From Phycisphaerales bacterium (GTDB lineage Bacteria > Planctomycetota > Phycisphaerae > Phycisphaerales > SM1A02): DNA of 64,000 bases. Within the stretch, counting starts at the first letter, position 1. Every line of letters starts with the position of its first letter. The position numbers and the translations under genes are program-made. Shown here piece by piece: positions 7,007 to 29,121 of the stretch. Below the pieces are notes generated by a model that ran no database searches, had not been told where the DNA came from, and saw only the letters and a program-made list of their open reading frames with translations. The stretch is taken from positions 186,001 through 250,000 of the forward strand of contig JAQWPT010000033.1 in assembly GCA_029245245.1 (NCBI GenBank), written 5' to 3'.

Positions 7007-7100
7007 GGTTCGGGGTTCGCCTTCCAGGAGGGATCAGGCCGTGCTCATCCTGCGTACAGTATGGAGCAGCCCCTTCGCCTTCGCCGATGGAGTCTCGGCC

Positions 7101-7129
7101 TTGTCAGGGCATTGGCACACCGCAATACT
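7101..7129 (+). promoter_or_regulatory. candidate sigma70-type promoter of the secretion cluster
   Basis: TTGTCA (7101-7106) and AATACT (7124-7129) are separated by 17 nt, in the 210-nt gap between divergent coaB and the first ATPase gene. The start would lie near 7136, giving a leader of about 80 nt. TTGGCAC inside the spacer resembles a sigma54 -24 element, but the -12 element is missing. Confidence 0.35.
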
Positions 7130-7216
7130 ACGCATTCCCCACGGTGCGATGCAGGTGGGCATGAACTTGGACCCCACCTTCATCAGGGCATGGAACCCCG
7201 ATTCAAGCAGGTACGC

Positions 7217-12322: not shown

Positions 12323-13636
12323 ATGCCGACTTATCAGTACGAAGCACTCGATGCCAGCGGAAAGCCCAAGAAGGGTGTGGTCGATGCCAGTTCCAGCGAT
12401 GACGCCATCCAGCAGATTCGAGGGCAGGGCTTCTTCCCGACCTCCGTGCGCGAGCAGAAGGTCAAGGGCGGCGAGGTGGAAGGTGATGGCGGCAAACGCA
12501 AGAAGAAGCGTGCCGGCAAAGCCAAGAAGAAGGGCAAGAAGGGTGACATCAACCTCTCCCTCGACATCTTCCCGATCAAGACGAAGAAGATCACCCAGTT
12601 CACTCGCCAGTTGTCCACCCTCCAGGATGCCGGCCTGCCGCTGCTTCGATCGCTGCAGATTCTCGAGTCGCAGCAGAAGCCCGGGAAGCTCAAGAACATC
12701 CTCGGCGCCATCGTGGAGGACGTCGAGTCCGGGTCCACGCTTTCGGATTCGATGGCCAAGCACCCCAAGGCGTTTGACCGCCTCTACTCGAAGATGGTCA
12801 ACGCTGGTGAAATCGGTGGTGTGATCGACCTGATCCTGCAGCGTCTCGCCAACTTCATGGAGAAGGCTCAGCGGCTCCGTGCAAAGATCAAGGGCGCCAT
12901 GATCTACCCGGTGGTGGTCATCATCATCGCGGTCGTCATCGTCACCGGCATCATGTACTTCGTCATTCCGAAGTTCCAGGACATCTTCAACGACTTCGAG
13001 GTGGAACTCCCCGGCCTGACACTCTGGCTGATCGACGCCAGTGCGTGGGTGGCGGGAACATCCCCCGGACAGAACATTCCCGGGTGGGTGGTGATCGTTG
13101 CATCACCGTTCCTCATCTTCGCCTTCTTCAAGTTGATCAGGAAGACCAACTTCGGCCGCGCATCCCTGGACTGGCTCCTGTTGCGGATCCCGGTACTTGG
13201 CAGCCTTGTCGAAAAGACATCGGTGGCCCGCTTCACACGAACGCTCGGCACGCTCATTTCTGCGGGCGTACCCATTCTCGAAGCCATCAACATCACGCGG
13301 GAGACCTCGGGCAACTGGGTCTTCGAGCGTGCGCTCACCAGGGTCCACGACTCCATCCGCGAGGGCGAGACGTTCGCCGAACCACTGCGCGAGGCGAAGG
13401 TCTGTGATTCGCTGGTGGTCAACATGATCGATGTGGGCGAGGAGACCGGTGACCTTGACGTCATGCTCATGAAGGTGGCCGACAACTACGACGAAGAGGT
13501 CGACGTCGCCGTCCAGGCCCTGCTGAGTCTCCTGGAGCCCATGCTCGTGGTGGTCCTGGGTCTCGTGGTCGGCACCATCGTCCTGGCCCTCTTCCTCCCA
13601 CTGGTTTCCATGATCGAATCGGTCTCCAAGAACTGA
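12323..13636 (+). CDS. gspF: inner-membrane platform protein GspF/PilC
   Basis: A polytopic membrane protein of 437 residues that forms the assembly platform turned by the ATPase. It has the family start (YQYEALDASGKPKKGVVDA) and two GspF domains, each ahead of membrane helices near residues 193-215, 250-275 and 405-430. The second domain shows FTRTLGTLISAGVPILEA and the ML..VGEETG motif. An unusual lysine-rich insert of about 30 residues (positions 46-78) lies between the N-terminal segment and the first domain. It lies 23 nt after the second ATPase gene and 20 nt before the first pseudopilin gene. Confidence 0.92.
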   Translation: MPTYQYEALDASGKPKKGVVDASSSDDAIQQIRGQGFFPTSVREQKVKGGEVEGDGGKRKKKRAGKAKKKGKKGDINLSLDIFPIKTKKITQFTRQLSTLQDAGLPLLRSLQILESQQKPGKLKNILGAIVEDVESGSTLSDSMAKHPKAFDRLYSKMVNAGEIGGVIDLILQRLANFMEKAQRLRAKIKGAMIYPVVVIIIAVVIVTGIMYFVIPKFQDIFNDFEVELPGLTLWLIDASAWVAGTSPGQNIPGWVVIVASPFLIFAFFKLIRKTNFGRASLDWLLLRIPVLGSLVEKTSVARFTRTLGTLISAGVPILEAINITRETSGNWVFERALTRVHDSIREGETFAEPLREAKVCDSLVVNMIDVGEETGDLDVMLMKVADNYDEEVDVAVQALLSLLEPMLVVVLGLVVGTIVLALFLPLVSMIESVSKN

Positions 13637-13656: not shown

Positions 13657-14934
13657 GTGCCCATGCGACATGCTTCAACACGCCTCCGCTCACCGCGTAC
13701 CACGAACGGGTTCACCCTCGTGGAACTCGTGGTTGTGCTCGGAATCATCGCGCTGCTGGTCTCCGTGCTGGTGATCGCGGTCTCCGGAGCCAGGGAATCC
13801 GCCCGCGTCGTTCAGACCACGGCGACGATGTCCGCGATGTCCCAGGGAATGGTCGCCTTCCGGGAGGATGTCGGGTACCTGCCGCCACTGCTGGATGAAA
13901 GTCGCGGTCTCATGTCGCCGCCGCCCCTGGACGATGGCAATATCTTCGAGCGGATGCAGGGGTATTACTCCATCACCTCGCCGGCCGAGTACCTGCTGGG
14001 GTACGGACACCACGGCATGGATGGGTTCGGGTGGGACTCCGATGACGACGACTTCGCCTACCAGTTCGGACCCGATGCGCTCGATGACTCCAGCAACGAC
14101 GACCCCAACCACATCTATCAGGACGAATCAGATCGGTTCGGCATCCGACATCCCGGCGCCGACGGAGTCTGGACGTCCACCTACGCCACCGCCAACAAGG
14201 GAACCCTGATGGGTCGACGCGAGCGGTTCATCAACGGCAAGGCCAAGGACGACGGCCCGGTGCTCGGTCCCTACATGGCACTGCCGGGCAAGGGCGTCGT
14301 CGGTTCACTGGCCTGGTCGCATGGCGACGAGGACGGCGACGGCGACGAGGACGGGCACGAGGGCGTCGGCGAATGGGATTCGGCCGGTATCGACCCCGTA
14401 TCCGGTCAGCCACGCGTCTACTTTCCGGGAGAAGAGGGCTACGACGAGCATGGCGCGCAGGTGATCTGCGATGCCTGGGGTGGTCCCATCCGGTACTACC
14501 GGTTGAACTACCCGGGCACGCCGGGACGGAGGTACCCCTCCACCCAGGAGCCGTACTCGCCCAGCCTCTCCCAGTTCATCGCTCTTCGTCCCTGGGAGTT
14601 CGAGCCTGGCTCGGCGACGGACTACCTGGTGCCTTCCGGTGGGGAACTCTGGGGTGACTACAACAGCACGCTCGACGCGGACGGCCGACGTGGTGACAGT
14701 TCCACGACCTTCGAACTGCAGTCGGGCGAGTTCGCGTTCATGTCCGGAGGGCCGGATCGCCGCATCAACAACTGGCAGCGGACCGACAGCCCGGGCGTCG
14801 GCGGCAACGACGGCACTCGATTCAAGGACGACTGGCATTTCAACTGGGGCTCGATCCCCGGCAGCAATCCGCAGTACCCCGTGCCCGAGACCGAGGAGGT
14901 CAATCGGGACAACATCGTGGAGGTCGGCTCGTGA
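13657..14934 (+). CDS. gspG: GspG-like pseudopilin 1, extended
   Basis: A class III prepilin-type signal with cleavage expected at Gly18|Phe19 (NGFTLVELVVVLGIIAL), Glu at mature position 5 and a hydrophobic helix. The C-terminal part keeps GspG features: CDAWGGPIRYYRLNYPG and later MSGGPDRR. Between them is an insertion rich in Asp, Gly and Tyr, including a DEDGDGDEDG stretch near residue 225 that could bind calcium. At 425 residues it is about three times the usual GspG length. GspG is the main pseudopilus subunit in type II secretion; here it may be a decorated minor form. Its stop overlaps the next start (GTGA at 14931-14934). Confidence 0.8.
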   Translation: MPMRHASTRLRSPRTTNGFTLVELVVVLGIIALLVSVLVIAVSGARESARVVQTTATMSAMSQGMVAFREDVGYLPPLLDESRGLMSPPPLDDGNIFERMQGYYSITSPAEYLLGYGHHGMDGFGWDSDDDDFAYQFGPDALDDSSNDDPNHIYQDESDRFGIRHPGADGVWTSTYATANKGTLMGRRERFINGKAKDDGPVLGPYMALPGKGVVGSLAWSHGDEDGDGDEDGHEGVGEWDSAGIDPVSGQPRVYFPGEEGYDEHGAQVICDAWGGPIRYYRLNYPGTPGRRYPSTQEPYSPSLSQFIALRPWEFEPGSATDYLVPSGGELWGDYNSTLDADGRRGDSSTTFELQSGEFAFMSGGPDRRINNWQRTDSPGVGGNDGTRFKDDWHFNWGSIPGSNPQYPVPETEEVNRDNIVEVGS

Positions 14935-15803
14935 CGCCCATGCAGAACAATCGACGCGGCTGGACGCTGGTGGAGATGATGGTTGTCATCCTCGTCATCA
15001 GTGTGCTCGTGGCCCTGTCGCTGAGCATCGGCTCCGCGGTGCTCCAGGGATCCGAAGAGCAGCGGACCAAGAACGCCCTGGCGATCCTCGACAGCGCCAT
15101 GCAGGCTCGCATGGAGGAAGAGGTGGGCAGTTCATTCACCTACGGGTACCCGGGTGACCTCGCTCCGCGATACACGGTCGATACGGACGTGGCCGCCCAG
15201 AGTGCCAGCGGGTCGTGCGGCAACTGCAACGGCACCGCGGTCGAAGCGCTTGACTACCGTGAGGGCGGGCTTCCTACCGAGGACGAACTCCAGTGCTTCA
15301 TGTGGGCGCAGCTTGAAGGGTGCGCGACCTTTGACAGCGACGACGACGTCTACGCCGGCGTCAGTGCGGCATGCTTCTGGCACCTGAGCAGCCACCCCGG
15401 CTCCAGGGAGATCATTGCGGGCATGGAATCGAACCTGCTCCAGAAGATGATGTACCGGTTGGGCAACGACGAACAGGAAAATTCAATCATGCCGCGTGAT
15501 GCATGGGGCAACCCGATCATCATCGTGCTGCCAGGTCGAGACTGGGACGATCGTGCGGATGGTGCGGCCTTCGGCAATCCCAAGCGGCAGGACGAGGACC
15601 GGACCATCCGGACCAAGGAAGAGCAGTTGCTCGGGTCCGCGCTCCAGGGCGAGGCCTATTTCGTCTCCGCCGGCCCCGACGGCAAGTTCGGCAACATCCA
15701 CAACGACGGCATGCTCGTCGACGGGTTCACGCCGAATCCAAATGATTCCGACTTCCAGGCCGCCCTGGACAATCTCTACTCCTACGAGGTGCACACGTGG
15801 TGA
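14931..15803 (+). CDS. gspG: GspG-like pseudopilin 2
   Basis: A 290-residue pseudopilin starting at a GTG that overlaps the previous stop; an ATG at 14940 is an alternative. The prepilin site is RRG|WTLVEMMVVILVISVLV, with Trp rather than Phe at position 1 of the mature protein and Glu at position 5. The C-terminus keeps the GspG block DAWGNPI...YFVSAGPDGKFG. A loop with CGNC and two further Cys may form disulfides. It is encoded between the other GspG-like protein and GspH, which supports a pseudopilus role. Confidence 0.8.
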   Translation: MTPMQNNRRGWTLVEMMVVILVISVLVALSLSIGSAVLQGSEEQRTKNALAILDSAMQARMEEEVGSSFTYGYPGDLAPRYTVDTDVAAQSASGSCGNCNGTAVEALDYREGGLPTEDELQCFMWAQLEGCATFDSDDDVYAGVSAACFWHLSSHPGSREIIAGMESNLLQKMMYRLGNDEQENSIMPRDAWGNPIIIVLPGRDWDDRADGAAFGNPKRQDEDRTIRTKEEQLLGSALQGEAYFVSAGPDGKFGNIHNDGMLVDGFTPNPNDSDFQAALDNLYSYEVHTW

Positions 15804-16882
15804 ATCGTCGCCGGCGAGTCATTCCGTTCCACGGCTTCACGCTCATCGAGCTGCTGGCGGTCATCGTGATCGTCAGCATCGTGTCGCTGATCACCCTGGC
15901 CGCTTACCGGTCGCTCGCCAGTGATTCACGCAACGCGGTAGCGGCCAACACTGTCAGCATCGCCCTGGACAATGCGCGGGCGATCGCAATCGAGCAGGGC
16001 AAGCGGACCATGGTCGTCTTCCGGCCCGTTCGAACGGGCTTTGATTCCCAGCAGATCGCGGTGGTCATCGCCACCGAGACGAATGACGTGCATGTCAATC
16101 CCTGGGCCGAGTACGAGTTGAGCTACTACCACAGCCAGGCCGAGGACCAGATGGGCCTGCGATTCGAGCCGGCCAGGGGCATCAAGCCCCGGATGCTGCC
16201 CGAGGGCATGATGGTTGCCGCTCCCGTCTTCACCATCGCCCGCACCGGTGAGGCCGGGTGGAGTGGGGAAGACCAGACGATCGAGCAGGATGCCTGGCTC
16301 TGCCAGTCCAACCTCGGACAGATCAAGGGGCGCGACGATGACGAGTCGCCTGGAGTGGTCCTCGGCATCTTCTTCGAGACCGATGGCTCCATTCGTTCCT
16401 CCTTTACCGACACCGGATCCTCGCTCGCCTTCGTGGACTTCAACGGGGATGGCGCCCAGCGGGTGCTGGACCCCGAGTCTTCGCTGCAGAACCCGTATCG
16501 CGACTGGTGCCTGACCTCGACCTGCCGGCCGCCGGTCAGTGGTTCGATGGTTGGAGGCGTCCCGGAGCCCGGTGTTGACTACGTCACCTCTCTGGGGCTG
16601 ACCGCATTCGATTACCAGGGGCAGGTTCTCGACGAGGGGACGCTCCTGTACTACGGGCAGGATCTCGACGAGAGCGAGCCTTACGTAATGGTGGCTCCAT
16701 TCTTCGCCATCTTCGATTACGAGGAAGCTGCGGACTTCTACGGGGGGCATCAGGCCGACCTCGAAACCGGCTTGTTGCGCTGGAGCGATCCGGGAACCCG
16801 TCTCATTGACATCGATGCGTTCGCCCGAGCCCATGGTCACGTCTACCACTTCAACAGGCATTCAGGAGCCGTATCCAAATGA
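15797..16882 (+). CDS. gspH: GspH-like pseudopilin
   Basis: A 361-residue prepilin-like protein with GFTLIELLAVIVIVSIVSL after a basic leader (cleavage after Gly13). After the helix the sequence ALDNARAIAIEQGKRTMVVF resembles the start of the GspH/FimT fold. The domain is longer than in usual GspH (about 170 residues). Start is GTG, either 15797 or 15800; the latter would give the same GTGA overlap seen upstream. The order G-G-H-I-J-K fits type II secretion clusters. Confidence 0.7.
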   Translation: MVNRRRRVIPFHGFTLIELLAVIVIVSIVSLITLAAYRSLASDSRNAVAANTVSIALDNARAIAIEQGKRTMVVFRPVRTGFDSQQIAVVIATETNDVHVNPWAEYELSYYHSQAEDQMGLRFEPARGIKPRMLPEGMMVAAPVFTIARTGEAGWSGEDQTIEQDAWLCQSNLGQIKGRDDDESPGVVLGIFFETDGSIRSSFTDTGSSLAFVDFNGDGAQRVLDPESSLQNPYRDWCLTSTCRPPVSGSMVGGVPEPGVDYVTSLGLTAFDYQGQVLDEGTLLYYGQDLDESEPYVMVAPFFAIFDYEEAADFYGGHQADLETGLLRWSDPGTRLIDIDAFARAHGHVYHFNRHSGAVSK

Positions 16883-18117
16883 TGCTTTGCCGTCCCATTG
16901 CAAGGTCCGGACCACGGCGAGCATTCTCGCTGGTGGAACTGTTGATGGCGATCTTCATCCTCGGCATCGGCATCATCAGCATCGCGACGCTCTTTCCCGC
17001 CGGAATCGCCCAGCAGCGCAAGGCGATGGATGACCAGGTTGGTCCACTGGTGGCTCGAAACGCGGTCTCGCTGCTGCGGTCGCGCATTCCGCGTGACAGC
17101 TTCGGGCATCTGGAGATCGACTCGCTGAACCCGCCTCCCTGGGACGTCACGCCCGGCGATTTCCCCTGGCTCCGACCGGCTCTGGTCGTGGAAACCTCAA
17201 GCAGCGGACCGACCCTGGGCGCGATCGACATCTTCAACTCCCACGGGTACTACAACCTCTCGGGAGTCCAGACCGTCACCGAGGATACGGGCGATCTCTG
17301 GCTGGCCCCGGCGCTGAGTCGGTACGACGGTATCCCGTATGCCGGGCACCAGAATAATTCCGCTCCGCCCCTGGTGATCATCGAGCAGGATGAGCGTCAG
17401 TATCCCAAGTACGACGATTCGGGGCGGGCACCCCGGTACTACTGGGACTGCATGTTCCGACGTGCCGGCGACAAGGTCTTCGCGGCGATCTTCGTGTACC
17501 GGGTGCAGCCGATGCAGGGTGGGCAACCGCCGTGGGCCGTTCAGGCCGACGGGGGCAGGCTGCAGATTCCCTGGATGCTCGACCTGGAGAACGGTGCAAA
17601 CGACTACCAGCCCTGGCGTGTCGGCCAGGGATCCGGGTTCCCCGAGGATCGCAACGAGTGGATCCTGCCCAATGCCGATGCCGGCGATGCCTACAGCCCC
17701 ATGTCCAACGACGATTGTTGGCAGTGCCCAGGGCAGTGGCTGGTGGACCAGAACGGCCAGATCAATCGAATCTCCATCGGTCGAACCCGGCGTGACGATC
17801 CCACGACCCACGTGGAACTCGAGTACCCCGTATCTCCGCTGGCCGAGGATTCCGTCCATATTCCCGATGAGAGTTCGATGGACTTTGGCTACAACCCCGA
17901 GCACCGCGTCCCGAGAACCGGCAGCCTGATCCTGCCGGCGGGAGCCCGCAATGACGGCCAGTTCCAGTATTCCGCCGGCATGGTTGTTCCGGCAGCCGGA
18001 AGCGTGGTGGGCGGCCCGGTCGTTTCCCGTCTCTGGTACATGCCCTCGGGCGTCGTCAATGACAATGGCGACGAGTGGGGCTTTACTCCCATCTACATCC
18101 TCGTGGAGGAACTCTGA
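16879..18117 (+). CDS. gspI: GspI/PilV-like minor pseudopilin
   Basis: A 412-residue prepilin-like protein. Leader RRA|FSLVELLMAIFILGIGIISIATLFPAG has Ala instead of Gly before the cleavage site and the Ile/Gly-rich helix seen in PilV/GspI proteins. The remainder is a large extracytoplasmic region rich in Trp, Tyr, Pro and Asp without a domain I recognise. It overlaps gspH by ATGA (16879-16882) and the next gene by one base of TGATG. Position in the gene order, more than similarity, supports the GspI label. Confidence 0.65.
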   Translation: MMLCRPIARSGPRRAFSLVELLMAIFILGIGIISIATLFPAGIAQQRKAMDDQVGPLVARNAVSLLRSRIPRDSFGHLEIDSLNPPPWDVTPGDFPWLRPALVVETSSSGPTLGAIDIFNSHGYYNLSGVQTVTEDTGDLWLAPALSRYDGIPYAGHQNNSAPPLVIIEQDERQYPKYDDSGRAPRYYWDCMFRRAGDKVFAAIFVYRVQPMQGGQPPWAVQADGGRLQIPWMLDLENGANDYQPWRVGQGSGFPEDRNEWILPNADAGDAYSPMSNDDCWQCPGQWLVDQNGQINRISIGRTRRDDPTTHVELEYPVSPLAEDSVHIPDESSMDFGYNPEHRVPRTGSLILPAGARNDGQFQYSAGMVVPAAGSVVGGPVVSRLWYMPSGVVNDNGDEWGFTPIYILVEEL

Positions 18118-20021
18118 TGTTCAACAAGACTGCACAGACCAGGACTGTCCGTCGCGGTTTCACCCTGACCGAGATTCTTGTCGCCGTCGGGGTGCTCCTG
18201 GCGGTGGTGGTGATCACTGGCCGGGTCTTCAAGGTTGCCACGGATGTCACGGCATCCGGCCAGGCAACCATCGACATCATGCAGGAAGCCGCCGCCATCG
18301 AGGCGAGGATTCGCAAGGACATCTCCCAGATGTCCAGCGAGGGGTTCCTCGTGATCCACTCGGTGGAAGTGCCCAACAACGTGAACATCCTCGAGTGGCA
18401 GAACGAGGACGGCAGCCAGGGCGAGGAGCCGACGCTGCTGAACCCGACCCTGCCCGTGGACGCCACGGTTCGGTGCGACCAGTTGAGTTTCTTCGTCTCC
18501 AATCCCACGTCGTCCCAGGTCAGCAGTGTCGGCAGCGCCCTGGGAACGCACCCCAGCGCCCAGGGACAGAACGCATTCGTGACCTACGGGCACGGAGTCC
18601 AGTTGCCGGGGTTGAAGCCCTACACCCCGGAGTTTCTGGACAACTCGAGCGTGCCGTTGGGGTCGCCTCCCGTGGGATATGGTCATGATCCGGACATTGA
18701 TCAACTGGAGGCCGATGAGAGTGAGCTCACGCCGTGGCGATACGACAATCCGGGCCTCGATGAGGACCAGTGGTTGCCCACGGTGTGGACCGATTACAGC
18801 TCGCCGGTGGCAGGTCTCTACAGCCAGGACCAGCAGATTCCAGATGCACAGCGCTACGTCAATGCCACCCAGCCTGACGCTCGCCAGTGGGTACTCGCTC
18901 GCCAGGCCATCCTGCTGGCCGATGATGATCAGCAGTACCCCGGTAATGAGAGCAAACGCCAGTACCTCAACAACGTGCCATCGGCGATGTCCATCTTCTC
19001 CAACGATGCTCGGAGGACCGGGTCCAGCTCGCTCAATGGCGGGGATCTGAACACTGATCCGCCGGTGATCGCCTACGGCCGGGTTGATGTGGCCGCTATC
19101 CCCATCGATCAGGTGCGAGGACTGCTGCTGACCAGTCGCCAACAGGGCAACGCCCAGAACGAAATCATGCGACGCTGCATGCACGATGGCGACATCGTGG
19201 CGAATGTCGACGAGGATGGCGACGGAATCAACGACATGGAGCCTCGCGCTGTGCTCGAATCCCCCGCAATCTTCGGGCTGCCGCCGAACACGTACCTTGG
19301 CCAGCGATTCTTCATGAAGGACACTGTCCGCTGGCCTCGGGTCGAGCGGGTCGCTCCGAGTCTGACCAAGGTTGACCAGGCCCTGGTCAATCATGCCCTG
19401 GGCAGTTCCTGCTCCTCCTTCCAGGTGGAATGGACCTACGCGGAGGGTACCGGAGAGGCCAGCGTGCCAAATCCAATCGATGGGGCGCCCAACCAGTACT
19501 GGCATGGGGTGCACTACTCCCCCTGGGACCCCCTCTTGAGCGCCTCAGGTGATCCGGAGTACACCGATGAACCCTGGCTTGGTCAGCGGTGGTTCGGGCT
19601 CCGGGACATCGATCGTGGCGTCATGCCGTATTCAGACTTCGTATGGAACTACCCGCGTCTGGAGCCGGAGGACGGCTTCGTCAATGCCGACAGCATCAAG
19701 GGAAAGGTGTCGGCAGGTGCCTTTGCCATTGATCCGTACGCAATTGACCGGGAATACCCAACCTTTGGCGACGATCCGCCGTACGAGGAGTACTGGGCCA
19801 CATTCGGGCTCAACCAGGATCAGCCCTCGCTGCCCCTTACCCAGGGGTCCGGGGCCACATGGTCCTATGAGCGGGATCGGAGTTTCGCCCCATGGCCATC
19901 GGCAATCCGCATCACCATGACCATCAACGATCCCCAGGGTCGGTTGGAGCAGGGGCAGGTCTACCAGTTCGTCGTCGAGGTGCCCGAGCAGGCTCGCGGC
20001 AGGTTCTCAGGAGGCATTTGA
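18117..20021 (+). CDS. gspJ: GspJ/PilW-like minor pseudopilin, enlarged
   Basis: A 634-residue protein with prepilin site RRG|FTLTEILVAVGVLLAVVV (Glu at mature position 5). The segment after the helix (DIMQEAAAIEARIRKDISQM) matches the start of GspJ/PilW proteins, which sit near the pseudopilus tip. Typical members have about 200 residues, so most of the chain is additional. Near residue 365 is DEDGDGINDMEP, a calcium-loop-like sequence. The ATG at 18117 shares its A with the upstream TGA, and its own TGA shares a base with the next ATG at 20021. Confidence 0.65.
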   Translation: MFNKTAQTRTVRRGFTLTEILVAVGVLLAVVVITGRVFKVATDVTASGQATIDIMQEAAAIEARIRKDISQMSSEGFLVIHSVEVPNNVNILEWQNEDGSQGEEPTLLNPTLPVDATVRCDQLSFFVSNPTSSQVSSVGSALGTHPSAQGQNAFVTYGHGVQLPGLKPYTPEFLDNSSVPLGSPPVGYGHDPDIDQLEADESELTPWRYDNPGLDEDQWLPTVWTDYSSPVAGLYSQDQQIPDAQRYVNATQPDARQWVLARQAILLADDDQQYPGNESKRQYLNNVPSAMSIFSNDARRTGSSSLNGGDLNTDPPVIAYGRVDVAAIPIDQVRGLLLTSRQQGNAQNEIMRRCMHDGDIVANVDEDGDGINDMEPRAVLESPAIFGLPPNTYLGQRFFMKDTVRWPRVERVAPSLTKVDQALVNHALGSSCSSFQVEWTYAEGTGEASVPNPIDGAPNQYWHGVHYSPWDPLLSASGDPEYTDEPWLGQRWFGLRDIDRGVMPYSDFVWNYPRLEPEDGFVNADSIKGKVSAGAFAIDPYAIDREYPTFGDDPPYEEYWATFGLNQDQPSLPLTQGSGATWSYERDRSFAPWPSAIRITMTINDPQGRLEQGQVYQFVVEVPEQARGRFSGGI

Positions 20022-23000
20022 TGTACGCAGCAGGACTCAACGGATCTGGTGGGGGGTACCGCCGATCTTCCACGACCGCGCGTCGTGGCAATGCCCTGGT
20101 CCTGGTGGCCGGGGCACTGGTGCTGCTGGTGATCATCGCCTCCGCCTACCTTTCCAGTGCGCAGGGAATCCGCAAGACCACCATGGCCCAGCGCCGCTCG
20201 GTGAACGTGGATGCGGGTGCCGGAGTGGTGGCCGAGGACATCGCCAAGGAAATCAGCGAGGCCCTGTTCGTTCGCGAGATCGACCCGTCGCCGGTCGTCT
20301 CCCAGTTCGGACCGACCTCCATCATCAATCGACTCATGGACATCGTGACCACTTCACTGGGGGAAGGTTATTCGGAACGATTCCTCGAGGATCGTCGACT
20401 GCCGCTGTCGAGCGTGAGTCACTTCCAGGAAATGGGGCGCAGTCCCGGTCGGTACGAAGTCGACCGCAACTTCGCCTGGAACTATGCGCCCTACGAGGTG
20501 TCGCCACGCACGAACTGGCCCGACTACCCATTGTTCCAGGTGGACAGTTGGCACGGGTACGACGAGTTGACGTTCGTCTGGTCCGGGGCCTTCTCATCCA
20601 GCAGTGGCCTGTCCAATCCTCCCGGCCAGCCGGGAACCAGCGACACCCGGTGGTTACGCGACCTGGAGCCGCTGCGGGCAAGCACGTCCGGCTACCTCGG
20701 TGGCCAGATGGGGCTCAACTACAAGACGAACCAGGACACGTTCTCGCACTACAGCCACCTGTCGAACCTGGCCCGGCCGGGCAACGACTGGCGGATCTGC
20801 CGTGACATCGCTGACGTCACCGGTGCTGTTTCGCCGTCTCACAATGCGATGGAATTCGGGCAGATCAATCCGGGTGACGAGCCGATCCCATTTGACCCGG
20901 ACCAGGCGGGCCCTGACGGGTTCCACTACTTCGGCGGCCTCCTGCGTGATCACCACGTGCCGGTCGAGCAGTGGTTGTCTCCTTCGCCGACGATCAATGG
21001 GGGATTGCACCGCGACCAGTACACCGGCACCACGTTCTTCACGTCACCGGTCGACTTCTGGCGACGCTGGCAGCGATGGTTCGACTACGCGGGCTACGCC
21101 TTCGCCCAGTCCATGGCGTTCCAGGGCAACTCCAACCACGTTCCCCCGAACTTCTACGACCTGTCCAACCTCGATGGAGATTCCGTGCTCACCGGCAATG
21201 GTGGGGGTGAAGTGCTCGCCGATCTCAACGACCTGGATCTCCAGGGCGATGCCATCGGTGAACGTCCCGAGGACGAGTTCATCCGTGGTTCGGCCCGCTG
21301 GCATGTGTCGCGGGTGCTCACGGACACCGATGGTGACGGGTTTACCGATTCCTTCTGGTTTCACGTGCCCGGTCGTGGCAGCGAAGGCACCATGCAGATC
21401 GTCGGGGTCTCGGTAACCGACAACGCCGGGCGGCTCAATGCCAACACGGCGACGCGGTTCGTGCGTTCCGATTCAGGTTCCCGCACCCGCACCCGGGGAT
21501 GGACTCCAGCCGACCTGGCCCTGGTGGGCCAGAACGCCGCGTGGTCGCCGAGTGGTGGTCAGAACGGTGGGTGGGGCGGCGATGATGAGGGGTGGGGGCC
21601 TCTCACGCACGAGTCCTGGAACGTGGGCTTCCTGGACAACCCGGTGAACTCCCCGGGCCTCTTTGACGTTGAATCCGCTACGGGCATGCCGCCCAACGCG
21701 TACGAGTTGATCGGCCATTACCGGCAGGGGCTCGATGCCATCGACAAGACCGTGCAGGAGCAGAACACCGCCGACAATCGATGGCGCTCCGAGGTCTTTC
21801 CGATCTGGCGAGCCAATTACTACCGCGATGGTGATCAGGCCGACTTCCTCTCGGTCACCAGTGTGCAGTCCAACAAGTGGTTCCCCAGGTCCAATGTCGA
21901 TATTCACCATGGGATCAACCGGCTCTTCTACTTCAAGAACGCCGGGGTGGATCCGCAGAACCCGAAGATGAGTTTCACCCCGTTCACCATTTCCGACGAG
22001 ATCGAACTGCGAACCAACGAGGGCAACAACCAGCCGTGGCTCATGACTCGATTCGAGCGAGCCGTGGGGAGTTCCCAGCACGACTCCAGTCAGGGTTCCG
22101 GCGGTATCTACACGCATCCGCTGCGATCCTTCACGCACCGCCAGGAGCACGCGGAACTCGTTGACCAGCTCTCGGCTCGCCAGTTGTTCTTCGACAATCG
22201 GCGAAAGCTCACGCTTTTCAACAGTTCCCGCAACGAGCAGCTGCCTCCGTGGCTGTGGTGGGAATACCGCGGCAGCCGGCAGACGGCCATCGACTCCAAC
22301 GGCGAGATCATTGACAACACCTCCGTGCATGGCGTGCCGCTGAGCCCGCCCGTTGATCTCGGTGGAGTCGTCGGGCCGCCGAGGAACAAGATCATCCCGA
22401 ATGACGGCGGCATGAACCAGGACTGGGTTGATAACCACTGGAATGCCGTGGTGCCCAGTCGCCCGAATCGCCCCGCGAACTTCGGCTCGGTCCGAAACGC
22501 GCCCAACACGAGCCTGTCGGCCTTCTACGACCAGATGCGCACGAAACTTGATCTCCGTGAGCACGAGCGGTACATCCCGTACCAGCCGCTGCTTGGTGGG
22601 CAGACCGCGTACCGACCCCGCACCTTCTCGGAGCGGCTGCCGTACGCATTGTTCATGGCGATGCAGAGCGGCGACCTGTCACCAGTCTCAAGTTTCAGCA
22701 CGACGACGAGCCGAAATCCGTTCGACGATCCCACCCAGACTGCAGACGACATCACTTCCAAGAACCTGACCCGGGACATGGCCGCCTCCTATGCTGCCAA
22801 CATCCTGGCCTGGCGTGATCCGGACTCCGATGCGCCGCTGTACAGCCAGACCGTGACCAGGCCCGGAGCGCCTCTTGAACTGCATCGCGAATATGGCGCG
22901 GTTCGCCCCCCGATCTTTCTCGACGACCTGGATGTCCCCGGTACGAGCCAGAACCGGGCCGCTGCGCACTACATTTCCCAGGCCAATGCCCCTGAACCGG

Positions 23001-26000
23001 CATTCCTGGGGATGGAGATGCAGCCGTTCATCATGGAGTCGTTCGTGGCCCACGTCGTGGAGCCATGGGATCCCAACGTGGCCAAGACCATCGACGAGAA
23101 GCGATACGAGTGGGACAACGGTGATTCTGAAACCCGGCTCTTCATCGAATACAAGGATGGGGATGAGGTTGGAATCGCGTTTACGCAGAACGAACGGGAG
23201 TCACGTGACATTCTCGGTGATTCGACCCTTGGGCTGCCGGAATCAAAGTCGGTGGTCGTGGTCCAGATCGCCAACCCGTACGACCGCCCGCTGCCGCTGT
23301 TCGGTCGCAACCCGAGTACAGGCCTGCTTGACCGGCAGCTTCCGCTCTACAAGCTCTCTTTCTTCGGCCAGACCGTCGTCATCGACGACAACCTCGTCCA
23401 GCTCAGTGAAGAGGGATACAGCAACTCGTACACGGAGGGGTACACCTACAACTCGCACCCCAGCATGTCCTCCGAAACAACCGGGCCGCGCAACCTCCTG
23501 CCCAATCAGAATGCGAGTCTTCCGCTCTACCTTCCGCCGGCGACTCCAGAGGCGCCCTATACCCTGATCCTCTTTGCGACGGGGTATGGTGCCGGCAACG
23601 TCGAGGACAGCCGCTGGATCGACTTCCTGGACCTGAATCCGGAAGACCATTTCTACGGTAAGTGGGAGATGGGAACGAACGATATCGAGCCCCACGTGTT
23701 CTCGCTGTACCGCGACCAGGATGGCACCCTGCCCCAGGAAGATGCGCAGCTCCGGATCTATCCCGGCGACCTGATCTGCCGTGTTCCCTCGTCCACGTGG
23801 GCGACCGATCGAGAACATTACGACGACTCGGACGGGTCAGGGGCTCCCGGCAATGGTGTGGCGATCGAGTTGATCCGAACGCATCGCCGCGACTACGGTG
23901 GTGACGGGAGCTATGCCGAGACGGTTGAAGTGGCTCCAGGCCAGACTCGCTACGACTACAACATCGACGTCGTGATCGACCGCACCGGGACGGCGGTCGC
24001 CTCCGGGTTTGGCAACAACCAGCAGAACCCACCCAATGCAGACGAGTTCTTCGAGACGGTATCCCAGACGCTCGAGTGCGAGCGATTGCCGAACCTCGCC
24101 GAGTTCTCGCATGCTACGGACCGCGACAAGATGATGAACGGGGCCACGGAGGTGGGAGGCATGGGCACCAACCCGGACAAGTCCTTCGAGGACGAGCCGC
24201 TGGTGACCAGTGTCATCAGCCGGTTGAACGAGAAGCCGGGCGATTATCCCATCCTGATCAACCAGCTGAATACTCATGTCACGGCAGTCGGAGAGGACGC
24301 GAGAGCATTTCAGTTCAAGATCAAAGTCCCAACCGATGTCCAGGATCAAACAGGAGATGTGCTGCAGAGTTCAATCGATTCAGTTCGATGGTGCCAGTGG
24401 GCACGCTACACCCGGGCCTGGGGAGTCGATCCGAGTTATCCGGGTGTTGAAATGGCCACGGCATCGGGAGAGGCGGGCGGCGTTCCGCTGAGCACGGCAT
24501 TCGTGTCCGCTCCGATCAACCACATGAACCGCAGCGCGCCTCGATACGTGATCGGCGAATCGCAGGTCACCCGATCCAAGGGACGGCCGCTGATCGGTGG
24601 CAACAATGCGGAGCCGGAGATCCTGCCCAAGGACACCCAGGGAATGTCGGCGTTCTATGAAGGCATGGAGCAGCATTTCGGCGATGTCGTGGATCGGAAC
24701 TCGAACCTCCTCGGTTCGATCCTGGTTCTCAACAACGATCATCGAACCGGCGAGGATGGCCTGCCTGAAAAGACCCGCTACATGTTCGAGTCCAACGAGG
24801 TGCTCGAAAACTCGTACGACGTGAAGCCCGCCTGGGGCCAGGTCTTCGACATGGCCGCGGATCCCGACGGCTCCTTCAGCCTGAACTTCGACGGGCCACC
24901 GGAAGCTCCTGATGCCTCGATGCCGGATCGACACTGGGTTCGCTCGCCCTGGATGACCAGGCATTATCGTCTGCCGTATTCCCGGGGGACGCTTAATCAG
25001 ACGCAGCAATGGTTCTTCGCCAGCAGCAAGCCGACCTTCTTCAACATGAATCACGGCTTCCTCCCGTACCTCGATCGTCTGGAGGGAGGCGCGAACATCC
25101 CCAGCTACCAGGGGCATCGGCCGTTCGAGAACGTGGGTTCAGGCGGTACCGATTCAAACCATGTCTACAACTTCCCGGACAAGGGGTACTACGGATACGA
25201 AGGCATCATGGGCCGGCAGGAACTGATGCCCTACGGGTTCCAGATGCTTCAGAAGGATGGCAACTTCGAGCAGGTCGGCGAGGTGCTCAACGTGATGGCC
25301 TGGTGTCATGAACTGCTCATTCCCGCGGGCCCGCCCACGTCGACCACCACGATCACGACCACCCGGACCTTCTCAGAAACGCTCTCAAACCTTGCCCGCA
25401 CCGGAAGGCCCGATGGCGGCGATTCCGGGAGCGGAGGCGGTCCGGTGATCGGCATGGTCGGCAGTGATGACGGCAAGGATTCGGCCATGGCCGCCCGTGG
25501 TCCTGCCGATGCCGAACTGGTGGAACTGTTCCCCTACGGGACGAGCAGGCATCTGGGTCGTCTGTCGATGGATTCCCAGGCGACACCCGGCGTGCCCGGC
25601 AACGCGGTGGGCAAGCTCCAGGTGAGTTCGGGTTGGCCCCATTCATCGCTCTGGCTGTCGGACATCGGACACGTCGAGCCCGACCTCGTGCCGGCCCAGC
25701 GAGTACTGGAACTGTTCGTGTGCGACGGTCCGGGCAACTGGGACATTGCGCACTACAACCAGTCACTGGGTGACGAGGATGGGGAAGGGTACTCCGATGG
25801 AGTCATTGACTACCCGCAGATGGCGTCGTCGTGGCTCGGCTACGAGCCCTCCTTCGGAAATGCCAGGGACTTCAGCGGCGGCGCAACCGCGGGTCTCGTA
25901 AACATCAACACCGCCACCATCGAGGTGCTCCGTGCCCTGCCGCACATGTACAAGATGGTGCACGGCACGCCGGACTGGCCTGTCAATTCCAGTGGCGGGA

Positions 26001-26929
26001 GCATTCTCGAGTCCAGTGGCACGTCCGCCAACACGCTGTTCGATTCCAATCCCAGGGTTGCGATCCCCGAAGCCATCATGAGTTACCGCCACCTGCAGGG
26101 CTCGGCGAATTCGTTCGTTCCCGCTCTCGAGGACCTGGGGACCGGGTACTCGTGGGGTCCCAACTACTTCGAGCAGCGGACTCCGAAGAACAGCGAGTTC
26201 AACGTTGACACGTCCCCGCGGGGAGGCATCGGCTTTGCCGGCATCGGCGAGTTGTTCAACCTGAACCAGACCGCCAGGGAAGATTTCAACGCCTACCGGT
26301 TCGCGACCAACTACCCGGACCAGTACCAGTCCAACTACCACGATCCGTCCGGCCAGGACATCTACCTGGATGCCTGGACGATGGACTTTGCGGCCAAGGA
26401 GCCATTCACCCGCGACGCCTACCAGCGGTTGCGGATCAAGAGCGGGGCCGACTCGCAGGCCTGGTACAACCAGTCGCTTGGTTACGATGGGCGGGCGCCG
26501 AACCCCAGTTGGAACCAGTTCGGGCAGAACTGGTCCAAGTTGAATCCCGCTCCGGTCATGCTCTCGATTGGTGCACCATTGAGCACCGACGTCAACGGCG
26601 AACAGCAGTTCCAGGTCGACAACTGGAACAGCCCGACCTTCGACGAGGCGGAGATCTATCGTGGTGGCGACAGGGTCGGCGGCGATGCGGAAGAGGCCAA
26701 CCTGCTCTTCGCCGGCATCTCCAACATGGTGACGACACGCAGCGACGTGTTCACCGTGCACTTCCAGATCCGGACCTTCGCCCAGAACCCCGACACCGGG
26801 CTGTGGGACGCGACGGATCCCGACATGATCCTCGACGACAGCCGATACGTGATGCTCGTGGATCGAAGTGAAGTGGACAGTCCAGAGCAGTCCCCACGCA
26901 TCCTCTACCTGCAGAAGACCTCGAACTGA
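20021..26929 (+). CDS. gspK: giant GspK/PilX-like pseudopilus tip protein (about 2300 residues)
   Basis: This 2302-residue protein is about seven times longer than normal GspK. A basic leader and RRGNALVLVAGALVLLVIIAS (residues 21-42) form a prepilin-like helix that lacks Glu5, as in GspK. Two GspK-like Asn-Thr-Ala signatures occur: DNAGRLNANTATRF near residue 468 and LVNINTATIEVLRALPHM near residue 1960. A calcium-loop-like DTDGDGFTDSFW lies near residue 434. The rest is rich in Trp, Tyr, Asn, Asp and Pro, fitting an extracellular adhesive or catch-like structure; no enzyme domain is recognised. It is the last gene of the operon and is followed by a strong terminator. I chose the ATG at 20021 by the TGATG overlap with gspJ. 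Confidence 0.75.
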   Translation: MYAAGLNGSGGGYRRSSTTARRGNALVLVAGALVLLVIIASAYLSSAQGIRKTTMAQRRSVNVDAGAGVVAEDIAKEISEALFVREIDPSPVVSQFGPTSIINRLMDIVTTSLGEGYSERFLEDRRLPLSSVSHFQEMGRSPGRYEVDRNFAWNYAPYEVSPRTNWPDYPLFQVDSWHGYDELTFVWSGAFSSSSGLSNPPGQPGTSDTRWLRDLEPLRASTSGYLGGQMGLNYKTNQDTFSHYSHLSNLARPGNDWRICRDIADVTGAVSPSHNAMEFGQINPGDEPIPFDPDQAGPDGFHYFGGLLRDHHVPVEQWLSPSPTINGGLHRDQYTGTTFFTSPVDFWRRWQRWFDYAGYAFAQSMAFQGNSNHVPPNFYDLSNLDGDSVLTGNGGGEVLADLNDLDLQGDAIGERPEDEFIRGSARWHVSRVLTDTDGDGFTDSFWFHVPGRGSEGTMQIVGVSVTDNAGRLNANTATRFVRSDSGSRTRTRGWTPADLALVGQNAAWSPSGGQNGGWGGDDEGWGPLTHESWNVGFLDNPVNSPGLFDVESATGMPPNAYELIGHYRQGLDAIDKTVQEQNTADNRWRSEVFPIWRANYYRDGDQADFLSVTSVQSNKWFPRSNVDIHHGINRLFYFKNAGVDPQNPKMSFTPFTISDEIELRTNEGNNQPWLMTRFERAVGSSQHDSSQGSGGIYTHPLRSFTHRQEHAELVDQLSARQLFFDNRRKLTLFNSSRNEQLPPWLWWEYRGSRQTAIDSNGEIIDNTSVHGVPLSPPVDLGGVVGPPRNKIIPNDGGMNQDWVDNHWNAVVPSRPNRPANFGSVRNAPNTSLSAFYDQMRTKLDLREHERYIPYQPLLGGQTAYRPRTFSERLPYALFMAMQSGDLSPVSSFSTTTSRNPFDDPTQTADDITSKNLTRDMAASYAANILAWRDPDSDAPLYSQTVTRPGAPLELHREYGAVRPPIFLDDLDVPGTSQNRAAAHYISQANAPEPAFLGMEMQPFIMESFVAHVVEPWDPNVAKTIDEKRYEWDNGDSETRLFIEYKDGDEVGIAFTQNERESRDILGDSTLGLPESKSVVVVQIANPYDRPLPLFGRNPSTGLLDRQLPLYKLSFFGQTVVIDDNLVQLSEEGYSNSYTEGYTYNSHPSMSSETTGPRNLLPNQNASLPLYLPPATPEAPYTLILFATGYGAGNVEDSRWIDFLDLNPEDHFYGKWEMGTNDIEPHVFSLYRDQDGTLPQEDAQLRIYPGDLICRVPSSTWATDREHYDDSDGSGAPGNGVAIELIRTHRRDYGGDGSYAETVEVAPGQTRYDYNIDVVIDRTGTAVASGFGNNQQNPPNADEFFETVSQTLECERLPNLAEFSHATDRDKMMNGATEVGGMGTNPDKSFEDEPLVTSVISRLNEKPGDYPILINQLNTHVTAVGEDARAFQFKIKVPTDVQDQTGDVLQSSIDSVRWCQWARYTRAWGVDPSYPGVEMATASGEAGGVPLSTAFVSAPINHMNRSAPRYVIGESQVTRSKGRPLIGGNNAEPEILPKDTQGMSAFYEGMEQHFGDVVDRNSNLLGSILVLNNDHRTGEDGLPEKTRYMFESNEVLENSYDVKPAWGQVFDMAADPDGSFSLNFDGPPEAPDASMPDRHWVRSPWMTRHYRLPYSRGTLNQTQQWFFASSKPTFFNMNHGFLPYLDRLEGGANIPSYQGHRPFENVGSGGTDSNHVYNFPDKGYYGYEGIMGRQELMPYGFQMLQKDGNFEQVGEVLNVMAWCHELLIPAGPPTSTTTITTTRTFSETLSNLARTGRPDGGDSGSGGGPVIGMVGSDDGKDSAMAARGPADAELVELFPYGTSRHLGRLSMDSQATPGVPGNAVGKLQVSSGWPHSSLWLSDIGHVEPDLVPAQRVLELFVCDGPGNWDIAHYNQSLGDEDGEGYSDGVIDYPQMASSWLGYEPSFGNARDFSGGATAGLVNINTATIEVLRALPHMYKMVHGTPDWPVNSSGGSILESSGTSANTLFDSNPRVAIPEAIMSYRHLQGSANSFVPALEDLGTGYSWGPNYFEQRTPKNSEFNVDTSPRGGIGFAGIGELFNLNQTAREDFNAYRFATNYPDQYQSNYHDPSGQDIYLDAWTMDFAAKEPFTRDAYQRLRIKSGADSQAWYNQSLGYDGRAPNPSWNQFGQNWSKLNPAPVMLSIGAPLSTDVNGEQQFQVDNWNSPTFDEAEIYRGGDRVGGDAEEANLLFAGISNMVTTRSDVFTVHFQIRTFAQNPDTGLWDATDPDMILDDSRYVMLVDRSEVDSPEQSPRILYLQKTSN

Positions 26930-27022: not shown

Positions 27023-27793
27023 CTATGACGCTTCGACGGCTCCGAAGCGTCGCTGGCGTGAGGCATAGTCGCGGACCGCGGTGTGCAGCGCGGCCTCATC
27101 GAAGTCCGGCCAGTAGAGATCCGTCACGTGGATCTCCGAGTAACTGATCTGCCAGAGTAGGTAGTTGGAGACCCGGTGTTCTCCAGACGTTCTGATCAGC
27201 AGGTCCGGATCTGGTATGCCGTGGGTGTAGAGATTCGAGGAGATCGTCTCCTCGGTGATCTCGTCGGGCCGCATGCTTCCGTCGGAGACCGCCTGCGCGA
27301 TTCGACGGGCCGCCCGGGTGATCTCATTCCGGGAGGAGTAGTTGATGGCCAGGACCAGGTGGAGGCCGCTGCATGCGGCGGTGGCGTGCTCGGTCAGTTC
27401 GATTTCACGGACCACGTCAGCCGCAAGTCCGTTGCGGGCCCCGATGACCTGGAATCGAACATTGTTGGCGATCAACTCGTCGCGTTCCTGGGGCAGGTAT
27501 TCAAGAAGCAGGCCCATCAGGGCATCGACTTCATCGGCGGGCCGTTTCCAGTTCTCCATCGAGAAGGAGTACAGGGTCAGGGTGCCGATCGACAGGACGC
27601 CGCACTCCTGGACGACCTTGCGGGCCGCCTCGGCGCCGGCGCGATGTCCCAGGCTGCGGTCCAGGTTGCGTTCCCCGGCCCATCGACCGTTGCCATCCAT
27701 GATGATGGCGATGTGGCCGGGTCGTTGTTTCCGTGGGATATCGAACTCAACGGGTTCGCCCTCACCAGGTGGGGTTGGAGGCGGGGGCGTCAT
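27023..27793 (-). CDS. uppS: isoprenyl transferase (undecaprenyl diphosphate synthase family)
   Basis: A 256-residue cis-prenyltransferase that elongates farnesyl diphosphate to the C55 lipid carrier for cell-wall and surface polysaccharides. It shows the start IAIIMDGNGRWA, the SFSMENWKRP motif, NYSSRNEI and the C-terminal DLLIRTSGEHRVSNYLLWQ region with the catalytic Asp in MDGNGR. Start ATG at 27793 overlaps the purA stop (ATGA), so translation is coupled to purA, an unusual pairing. A proline-rich tail of about 15 residues precedes the domain. Confidence 0.93.
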   Translation of the reverse strand: MTPPPPTPPGEGEPVEFDIPRKQRPGHIAIIMDGNGRWAGERNLDRSLGHRAGAEAARKVVQECGVLSIGTLTLYSFSMENWKRPADEVDALMGLLLEYLPQERDELIANNVRFQVIGARNGLAADVVREIELTEHATAACSGLHLVLAINYSSRNEITRAARRIAQAVSDGSMRPDEITEETISSNLYTHGIPDPDLLIRTSGEHRVSNYLLWQISYSEIHVTDLYWPDFDEAALHTAVRDYASRQRRFGAVEAS

Positions 27794-29121
27794 CCGCAAG
27801 GGGATCCTGCAAGGGTCTGGGTGCGTTCGGGCCCCACGCTGACGAGGTGAATCGGGAGTCCCAGGATTTCCTGGATCCTGTCGAGGTAGGCCAGGGCTTC
27901 CGGAGGCAGGTCGGAGCGGTTCTGTGATGTGTCGATCTCCTCGGCCCATCCCGGGACCGTCTCCCAGATCGGCTCGGCATTCAGCAACCTTCGTGCATCG
28001 GGGATGAAGCGGTCGGTCACGGTGCCGTCGGGAAGTCGGTAGGAAGAACAGATCTTGAGTTCATCGAAGCCCGAGAGCACGTCCAGGAGCATGCAGGCGA
28101 TGCTCGTGGCCCCGCAGATCATGGCCGAGTATCGAACGGCGACAAGGTCGAGCCAGCCGCAGCGACGCGGCCGACCTGTGGTGGTTCCGTACTCATTGCC
28201 TCGCTCGCGGATGCGTTCACCGATGGGGCCCGTGTCTTCGGTCGGGAACGGTCCGGCCCCGACCCGAGTGGTGTACGCCTTCATGATGCCGACGACTTCG
28301 TCGGCACAGGGCGCGGGGAGGCCGGTGCCGGCGGGGATGCCCAGCGTCGAGCAGTTCGAGCTGGTGACATAGGGAAACGTGCCGTGGTCGATGTCCAGCA
28401 GGCACGCATTGGCGCCTTCGAACAGGATGGACCGGCCGTTGTTGCGGAAGTCGTGCAGCGCGTAGACCGTGTCCGTGATGTGGTTTTCGAGCAGCCGGCC
28501 GTACTCCGAGTAGCGTTCAGCAAGTTCGTGTGGATCCAGTGGTGGAGCCTCGACCCCGAGCGCATCGAGTTCACGGGTTCGGATTGCGCAGATGACCTCG
28601 AGTCGGCTGCGCAGGTGATCGGCGTCGGCAAGTTCACCCATCCGGATTGCCAGCGAGCGATGCACCTTGTCGGCGTACGCGGGGCCGATGCCTCGCTTCG
28701 TGGTGCCGATGGACAGGCCCGGGCCGGAGTCGTCGATGGCCGAGGACAGGACCCGCTCCAGGGCGGCGTCGTGTTCCTTGTGGTAGGGCATCACAACGTG
28801 TGCCCGGTCGGAGATCAGCAGGTTGCCGGCGTTGATCTCGATGCCTCGGCTGCGGATGCCCTCGATTTCCGAGAGCAGCATTTCAGGATCAACGACAACG
28901 CCGTTGCCGATCACGCAGATCTTCCCGCCAGAGAGGATGCCGGAAGGGAGGAGGTGCAGGGCGTACTTCTCCTCGCCGATGACCACGGTGTGCCCGGCAT
29001 TGGCGCCACCGTTGTAGCGGACGATCACGTCGTGGTCCGCGGTCAGCAGATCCACCACCTTGCCCTTGCCTTCGTCGCCCCACTGCAGGCCAACCACAGC
29101 AGTATGTCCGGGTGTACTCAC
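27790..29121 (-). CDS. purA: adenylosuccinate synthetase
   Basis: A 443-residue enzyme that makes adenylosuccinate from IMP, aspartate and GTP in AMP synthesis. Recognised by the loop GLQWGDEGKGK near the N-terminus, NGGANAGHTVV, GTTKRGIGPAYADK and the GTP-binding end. GTG at 29121 is chosen as start: GGAGGG lies 10 nt upstream, and the protein then starts as in other PurA proteins. A TTG start at 29157 would add 12 residues. The gene is divergent from the small zinc-ribbon gene and coupled to uppS. Confidence 0.93.
   Translation of the reverse strand: MSTPGHTAVVGLQWGDEGKGKVVDLLTADHDVIVRYNGGANAGHTVVIGEEKYALHLLPSGILSGGKICVIGNGVVVDPEMLLSEIEGIRSRGIEINAGNLLISDRAHVVMPYHKEHDAALERVLSSAIDDSGPGLSIGTTKRGIGPAYADKVHRSLAIRMGELADADHLRSRLEVICAIRTRELDALGVEAPPLDPHELAERYSEYGRLLENHITDTVYALHDFRNNGRSILFEGANACLLDIDHGTFPYVTSSNCSTLGIPAGTGLPAPCADEVVGIMKAYTTRVGAGPFPTEDTGPIGERIRERGNEYGTTTGRPRRCGWLDLVAVRYSAMICGATSIACMLLDVLSGFDELKICSSYRLPDGTVTDRFIPDARRLLNAEPIWETVPGWAEEIDTSQNRSDLPPEALAYLDRIQEILGLPIHLVSVGPERTQTLAGSPCG

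Follow-up and report, generated by a model that had tools for sequence, protein, structure and literature searches.

A giant GspK-type protein, probably a pilus-tip subunit enlarged by a roughly 1,100-residue insert, closes a type IV pilus-like operon in a Phycisphaerales bacterium

Results

The operon and its last gene

The window analysed here is a stretch of 64,000 nucleotides from a Phycisphaerales bacterium. It holds a cluster of genes that ends in a giant open reading frame:

7061-8953, + strand: PilB/GspE-like ATPase with an MshE-type c-di-GMP motif (profile matches)
9042-10178, + strand: PilT retraction ATPase (TIGR01420, 445.7 bits against a cut-off of 319.1)
10488-12299, + strand: second PilB/GspE-like ATPase (profile matches)
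12323-13636, + strand: PilC/GspF platform protein (profile matches)
13657-14934, + strand: GspG-like prepilin, 425 aa (profile matches)
14931-15803, + strand: GspG-like prepilin, 290 aa (profile matches)
15797-16882, + strand: GspH-like prepilin, 361 aa (profile matches)
16879-18117, + strand: PilV-like prepilin, read as GspI in an earlier note on this DNA, 412 aa (profile matches)
18075-20021, + strand: prepilin at the GspJ position, 648 aa (profile match)
20021-26929, + strand: putative giant GspK-type minor pilin, 2,302 aa (ORF, start site, open in relatives)

The genes further 5' include a helicase, a phosphomannomutase-type enzyme, a CitMHS transporter and ThiG, and the cluster therefore seems to start near 7061. 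The next nameable gene 3' of the giant encodes an undecaprenyl diphosphate synthase (27023-27949) on the opposite strand, so the giant is the last gene of the operon. Before it stand five genes with prepilin N-termini, of which four pass Pfam N_methyl and the fifth only NCBIfam TIGR02532. When these four prepilins were scanned with NCBIfam, three scored best against GspG or GspH models, all under cut-off, and the fourth was PilV-like. The MshE-type c-di-GMP motif scores 51.4 against a cut-off of 38 in the first ATPase and falls just short in the second, at 35.6. The PilB/GspE and GspF/PilC equivalog models give high scores in the operon, yet under their cut-offs, with a tie between GspF and PilC for the platform protein; PilT passes. 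Since PilT is over its curated cut-off, and PilB and PilT ATPases, PilC and prepilins are found together, the operon is by its gene content a type IV pilus-like system.

The longest in-frame ORF covers 19892-26929 (2,345 aa). Translation from the ATG at 20021, which has GGAGG immediately 5' and shares one base with the preceding stop (TGATG), gives the single giant protein of 2,302 aa that the earlier note had proposed. The frame stays open in close relatives that are 70% and 57% identical. Against two close relatives pN/pS is 0.34 and 0.51 for the whole gene, 0.17 and 0.37 for the first-signature block (426-745) and 0.40 and 0.47 for residues 1950-2302, all of which are rough values because synonymous changes are near saturation. 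A chance ORF is ruled out by the open frame in relatives and by pN/pS. The parts of the protein discussed below are:

20081-20170, + strand: class III leader and prepilin-like helix without Glu5, residues 21-50 (sequence; conserved in family)
21323-21460, + strand: DTDGDGFTDS and beta-1/NANTA signature, residues 435-480, putative counterpart of the GspK 'DESGKLN.NTA' (alignments; hhalign)
21953-22255, + strand: putative first SAM-like part, 'PFTISDEIELR...KLTLFNSSRNE', residues 645-745 (alignments by eye; no hhalign match for 600-760 alone)
22298-25660, + strand: putative insert of about 1,100 residues, 760-1880 (hhalign, anchor lengths, fold model)
23237-23989, + strand: best-predicted part of the insert, residues 1073-1323 (its counterpart in the relative L097 resembles lamin-tail (LTD) Ig-like domains)
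25868-26275, + strand: putative second SAM-like part with NINTA, residues 1950-2085 (alignments, hhalign)
26663-26926, + strand: C-terminal beta part, 'TTRSDVFTV...VDRSEV...PRILYL', residues 2215-2302 (alignments, hhalign, TIGR02600 C-terminal match)

The N-terminus is prepilin-like, with RRG followed by NALVLVAGALVLLVIIASAYLSSA (RRG/NALVL), which rules out an ordinary signal peptide. Mature residue 5 is Leu, and the helix thus lacks Glu5 as had been claimed. The two Asn-Thr-Ala signatures are also there: NANTA at residues 473-477, which the earlier note had put at about 468, and NINTA at 1961-1965, with a spacing of about 1,490 residues.

Other pilus and secretion loci of the genome

A separate type II secretion (T2SS) locus is found on contig C23, with T2SSE-like and T2SSF-like stretches, a 937-aa secretin and, as judged by eye, three prepilin-like proteins of 215, 168 and 293 aa. 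The prepilins before the giant (13657-20021) are all large in comparison, with 425, 290, 361, 412 and 648 aa. The C23 locus also encodes a 451-aa GspK, whose frame holds a PF21687 match over cut-off, the sole one in the genome. This ordinary GspK rules out the giant as the gspK of the genome's T2SS. The earlier note had assigned it the gspK position at the end of a pseudopilin operon; the place after the fifth prepilin stands and is kept in relatives, but the gene is not a T2SS gspK.

Contig C6 carries a PilM/PilN/PilO/secretin cluster, in which PilM (73.5 bits) and PilO (31.2 bits) are over cut-off and PilN is just under it (22.4 against 22.8). A prepilin peptidase (Peptidase_A24, 30.1 bits against a cut-off of 26.5) is encoded on C30, the window's contig. 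PilM, PilN, PilO, secretin and prepilin peptidase, which we looked for as parts of a type IV pilus, are thus present in the genome, split over two contigs, and their joint use is assumed; the C6 cluster and the peptidase may serve the window's operon. A third secretin (L185:5050-8241, 1,063 aa) adjoins a carbamoyl-phosphate synthase gene, with no pilus gene among the scanned neighbours.

The giant family

In our searches 32 of 41 genomes match the giant at E 0.001, its own genome included. The family alignment consists of 26 proteins from those genomes, a few of them cut at contig ends, plus that of the window. GspE and GspF lie 5' on the same strand in 22 of the 26 loci and PilT in 19, and the remaining stretches end before that point. 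A scan of genome contigs yielded 123 relatives, of which the best 80 were retained; seven of these 80 loci gave no ORF by motif. Merging copies among the 27 aligned proteins and 42 proteins with a detected prepilin start from the 80 loci gave 57 distinct proteins. A motif search finds D-(A/T/S)-D-G-D-G-x-x-D-(S/A) and an RSD-x-(F/Y/C) site in all 57, and a NINTA-type site near the C-terminus in 54, for a set (the window's protein included) for which the prepilin motif and the RSD site had been among the selection criteria. The C-terminal beta part (2215-2302) is one of the best-conserved blocks of the family. In L127 a 2,243-aa ORF has a different prepilin segment (FTLTELL) at its start and the DGDG site at residue 860, which would fit either a fusion of the adjacent prepilin gene with the giant or a misassembled frame.

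Similarity of both ends to GspK

We compared the family alignment (27 rows) with 36 ordinary planctomycete GspK proteins by hhalign, using 12 column shuffles as control. Residues 1870-2302 match GspK with a probability of 97.2% (E 3.4e-11) and residues 400-500 with 61% (E 8.1e-5). The whole N-terminal part (60-760) reaches only 29.9%, and 600-760 alone 0.2%. Three middle blocks gave no match to GspK (5.4, 1.4 and 0.5%; the 12 shuffles at most 0.5%). In the full-length comparison it is the first SAM-like part of GspK, rather than the second, that gives the better pairing with the NINTA block, so that the exact match-up of the two halves is somewhat tentative. A GspK from the window's family (L092) ends TTRSDVF...VDRSTVPVRIL, and the giant TTRSDVF...VDRSEV...PRIL.

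A Pfam scan of the giant found no family up to E 10, N_methyl included. The T2SSK profile search that the earlier note had proposed came out negative, as PF03934 matches neither the giant nor anything else in a profile search of the genome's contigs. A sequence search of the PDB gave no convincing chain (0 matches, then one chance-like ribosomal match at E 1.2), and no plasmid record matches the giant.

Another known family of very large proteins is Verru_Chthon cassette protein A (TIGR02600, 1,296 positions). Residues 2204-2283 of the giant match the end of this model (E 5.8e-4), and two prepilins beside the giant weakly match cassette protein D. Membership is ruled out by scores of 17.9 bits for the giant and 13.9 for L097 against a cut-off of 332.3. 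The model matches in 98 of 294 genomes of the phylum, mostly over its first 60 or so positions, and none passes the cut-off. Our literature searches found no paper under the Verru_Chthon name.

A GspK-type core in a relative

For fold prediction we used the relative L097 (1,409 aa, 39% identical to the giant). The AlphaFold2 model covers residues 210-1409, and so holds both signature regions and the insert, without the N-terminal helix; the structure alignments A3 and A4 (42 and 35 rows) comprised the window's row and rows chosen from the 80 loci. The model has a mean pLDDT of 74.1 and a pTM of 0.81. The top four VIA-align matches are the GspK/XcpX chains 6utu_C, 5vtm_X, 9a1f_T and 3ci0_K (Z 9.9, 9.8, 9.7 and 9.3), aligned at rmsd 3.5-4.2 over 209-214 of 259-295 residues. 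These alignments take in both ends of the model, in a range of 10-1200 that gives the first and last aligned residue only. Next in the list are lamin tail domains, with Z 7.2 and below (6.2-7.2), around model positions 541-725. Foldseek alone gave no match at E <=0.001 for the L097 model, with 3ci0_K at rank 10 (E 0.31).

A single GspK-type core built from both ends of the protein is therefore a well supported prediction for L097 and, by homology with it, for the window protein. The hhalign matches of the two ends, strong for the C-terminal and moderate for the N-terminal one, and the L097 model support the proposal that a huge insertion splits a GspK core. The earlier note would have dropped its GspK reading if the signature regions did not assemble; they do so in the model, which is that of the shorter relative and not of the window protein. 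Among the marks of a GspK, the giant has the prepilin-like N-terminus without Glu5, and a pilin core with a SAM-like alpha-domain is seen in L097, weakly by Foldseek alone. It matches neither PF03934 nor PF21687 and lies outside a T2SS operon, given the PilT in its own operon and the separate T2SS locus.

The insert

The insert spans about residues 760-1880. Measured between the folding anchors, it has 1,179 residues in the window protein. Both anchors were present in 42 of 73 relatives, where its length is about 520-1,690 residues if L100 (254, short contig) is set aside. Pfam's lamin tail domain matches three members of a set of 35 insert sequences, with a best E of 0.0019, and the window's own is not among them. 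The model of the window's insert is poor (mean pLDDT 55); its structural matches have Z 3.6 or less and are mostly GH2 enzymes. Lamin tail is not listed among them, an absence that is no counter-evidence. The viral fold library gave 83 matches, none at E <=0.001. Pfam scans of the giant and of the 35 insert sequences revealed no domain with a known binding activity.

This raises the question whether most of the insert arose by passive growth, as a ligand-free spacer or accumulated sequence that the tip tolerates. Its length varies about threefold among relatives, its later part is largely poorly predicted, and the fastest-evolving of the tested blocks is 1324-1725 (pN/pS 0.42 and 0.74, against 0.38 and 0.63 for the whole insert; both rough, as synonymous changes are near saturation). 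However, pN/pS, rough as it is, stays below 1 in every block tested, and conserved blocks recur within the insert (QPFIMEAF, QIANPYD and QMLQKDGDFEQVGE). The insert evolves under constraint as far as these substitution rates tell, and we find passive growth an improbable explanation.

Distribution, length and phylogeny

A profile of the C-terminal part matches 40 of 294 sampled genomes of the phylum, including all 22 of the window's class (its own genome, one of its family, 13 of its order and seven of its class). Outside the class 18 of 272 genomes match, several weakly or by short pieces. The best matches in the 22 class genomes fall within open frames of 950-2,352 aa; the one exception, a frame of 648 aa in G029, runs off the contig. 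The survey of length suggested earlier thus found enlarged versions in all sampled genomes of the class. The 51 proteins with a detected prepilin start have 1,045-2,876 aa (median 1,773).

The operon order recurs in relatives. In 11 of 20 loci PilB, PilT, GspE and GspF come before the giant-type gene, and five others are shorter or partial. Four f66 loci from outside the class (L213, L214, L215 and L232) have PilB, GspE and GspF with a giant-type protein of 860-948 aa, and no PilT match within about 18 kb.

These data bear on whether the giant could instead be the tip of a second, T2SS-like secretion pseudopilus, whose cap pushes or selects exported proteins. Such a pseudopilus would agree with the best scores of three of the four scanned prepilins against GspG or GspH models, all under cut-off, and with the match of the L097 model to GspK. 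But the genome already has a T2SS locus, the platform protein is tied between GspF and PilC, the fourth prepilin is PilV-like, and PilT is over cut-off in the operon and recurs 5' of the gene in most loci of the family, an argument limited by the f66 relatives. We consider a secretion pseudopilus unlikely.

A tree was built from the C-terminal core (82 rows, 211 columns; 46 giant-type and 36 GspK proteins), with midpoint rooting; L225, one of 20 further relatives, had no usable core and was left out. The 46 giant-type rows fall on one side of a branch, apart from the GspK rows, with support of 97/85. Seen from GspK, f66 branches first, then f13, f18 and f20 of the same class, and then the families of the order, whose fork has support of only 88/70. 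The window's family is innermost, and the placement of the window's own short row (136 aa) rests on less sequence. Proteins with a prepilin start have 860-948 aa in f66, 942-1,310 aa in f13, f18 and f20, 966-1,603 aa in f2, f5 and f6 of the same order, and 1,467-2,352 aa in the window's family (f1). The early branches therefore have about 860-1,310 aa and the window's family up to 2,352 aa, a trend which suggests stepwise enlargement of the protein through the class. Proteins on unlabelled contigs, which are absent from the tree, reach 2,876 aa.

In 20 further loci of the phylum, one of them without an ORF and at least two (L193, L206) with ORFs that look wrong-frame, seven prepilin-like proteins of 1,157-1,622 aa have another layout (L187, L188, L190, L196, L197, L203 and L204). 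Six of the seven have a NINTA-type site near residues 265-470, followed by a long extension that ends in a DD(I/V)-type motif. They are possibly a second giant GspK-like type.

Discussion

The results point to a probable pilus-tip subunit of GspK type, made oversized by roughly 1,100 inserted residues. The giant shares with GspK/XcpX (PDB 3ci0_K, 5vtm_X, 6utu_C, 9a1f_T) a prepilin helix without Glu5, the order of the signatures, the place after the pseudopilin genes and, in the relative L097, the predicted core fold. It differs in being about five times as long as the 451-aa GspK of the same genome, in the roughly 1,100-residue insert between the signature regions, in the PilT of its operon and in the absence of a Pfam T2SSK match. 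We think it likely that a second, type IV pilus-like machine uses the giant as a minor pilin of GspK type, with an insert that would bind a surface or polymer at the tip.

The absence of Glu5 marks the first subunit of a filament. From this and the gene content we infer how the giant may be processed, located at the tip, extended, retracted and bound to its target. The prepilin peptidase would cut it after RRG, and the mature protein, without Glu5, would start the filament as its capping subunit, with the neighbouring prepilins added behind it. The PilB-like ATPase or ATPases, which c-di-GMP may control, would drive extension of the pilus, and PilT its retraction. At the tip the insert would be exposed as the working part and bind a surface or polymer.

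A tip position for GspK itself has been proposed (part of PMC8179133). The closest precedent for the insert is ComZ of Thermus thermophilus, a GspK-like pilin with a large inserted domain that is proposed to be a tip receptor; in the part of the paper covered here, it is argued to be the tip pilin because the inserted domain cannot be fitted mid-filament (PMC6561018). The insert of ComZ is a beta-solenoid between the last two strands, whereas that of the giant lies between the signature regions and has a partly Ig-like look in L097. We therefore see the giant as a tip pilin of the inserted-domain kind whose insertion lies elsewhere and whose size is unusual.

The ComZ precedent (PMC6561018, in part) also invites the idea that the giant is a receptor for DNA uptake, and a Competence (ComEC-type) domain is indeed encoded in the genome. 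Such a domain is also found in 10 of 14 control genomes, however, and so discriminates little, and the insert matched no DNA-binding family and sits at another place than that of ComZ. A role in DNA uptake seems distinctly unlikely to us.

Modular pilins, for example PilB and PilC of Streptococcus sanguinis, combine a pilin module with an extra module, and GspK is discussed as a case of them (PMC8179133, in part). The survey behind this concept searched for the N-terminal IPR012902 motif, and the most extreme multi-domain example named in that portion of the text has 860 residues (PMC8179133). The giant has no Pfam N_methyl match and in this differs from the modular pilins. Within the literature searched, including the portions covered of PMC8179133, PMC6561018, PMC5394234, PMC13274419 and PMC6461901, we found no description of a giant GspK in planctomycetes.

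Returning to the tip pilin of a type IV pilus-like machine, our findings suggest that a tip subunit of GspK type can accommodate an insert exceeding its own size, at another place than in ComZ, and that this oversized insert has been kept and enlarged across a bacterial class. Planctopirus and Gemmata belong to another class than the bacterium of the window. Gold-labelled dextran has been seen on pili-like fibres of these two genera (part of PMC5394234). The giant offers a test target for the question raised by those fibres, namely how these planctomycetes grip surfaces or polymers (part of PMC5394234). A far-reaching and rather unlikely version of our reading would have the giant tips of Phycisphaerae pili capture polymers or surfaces that are then drawn in by PilT, with a tip insert enlarged stepwise through the class. 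If true, it would give a molecular identity to the polymer-binding, pili-like fibre of planctomycetes.
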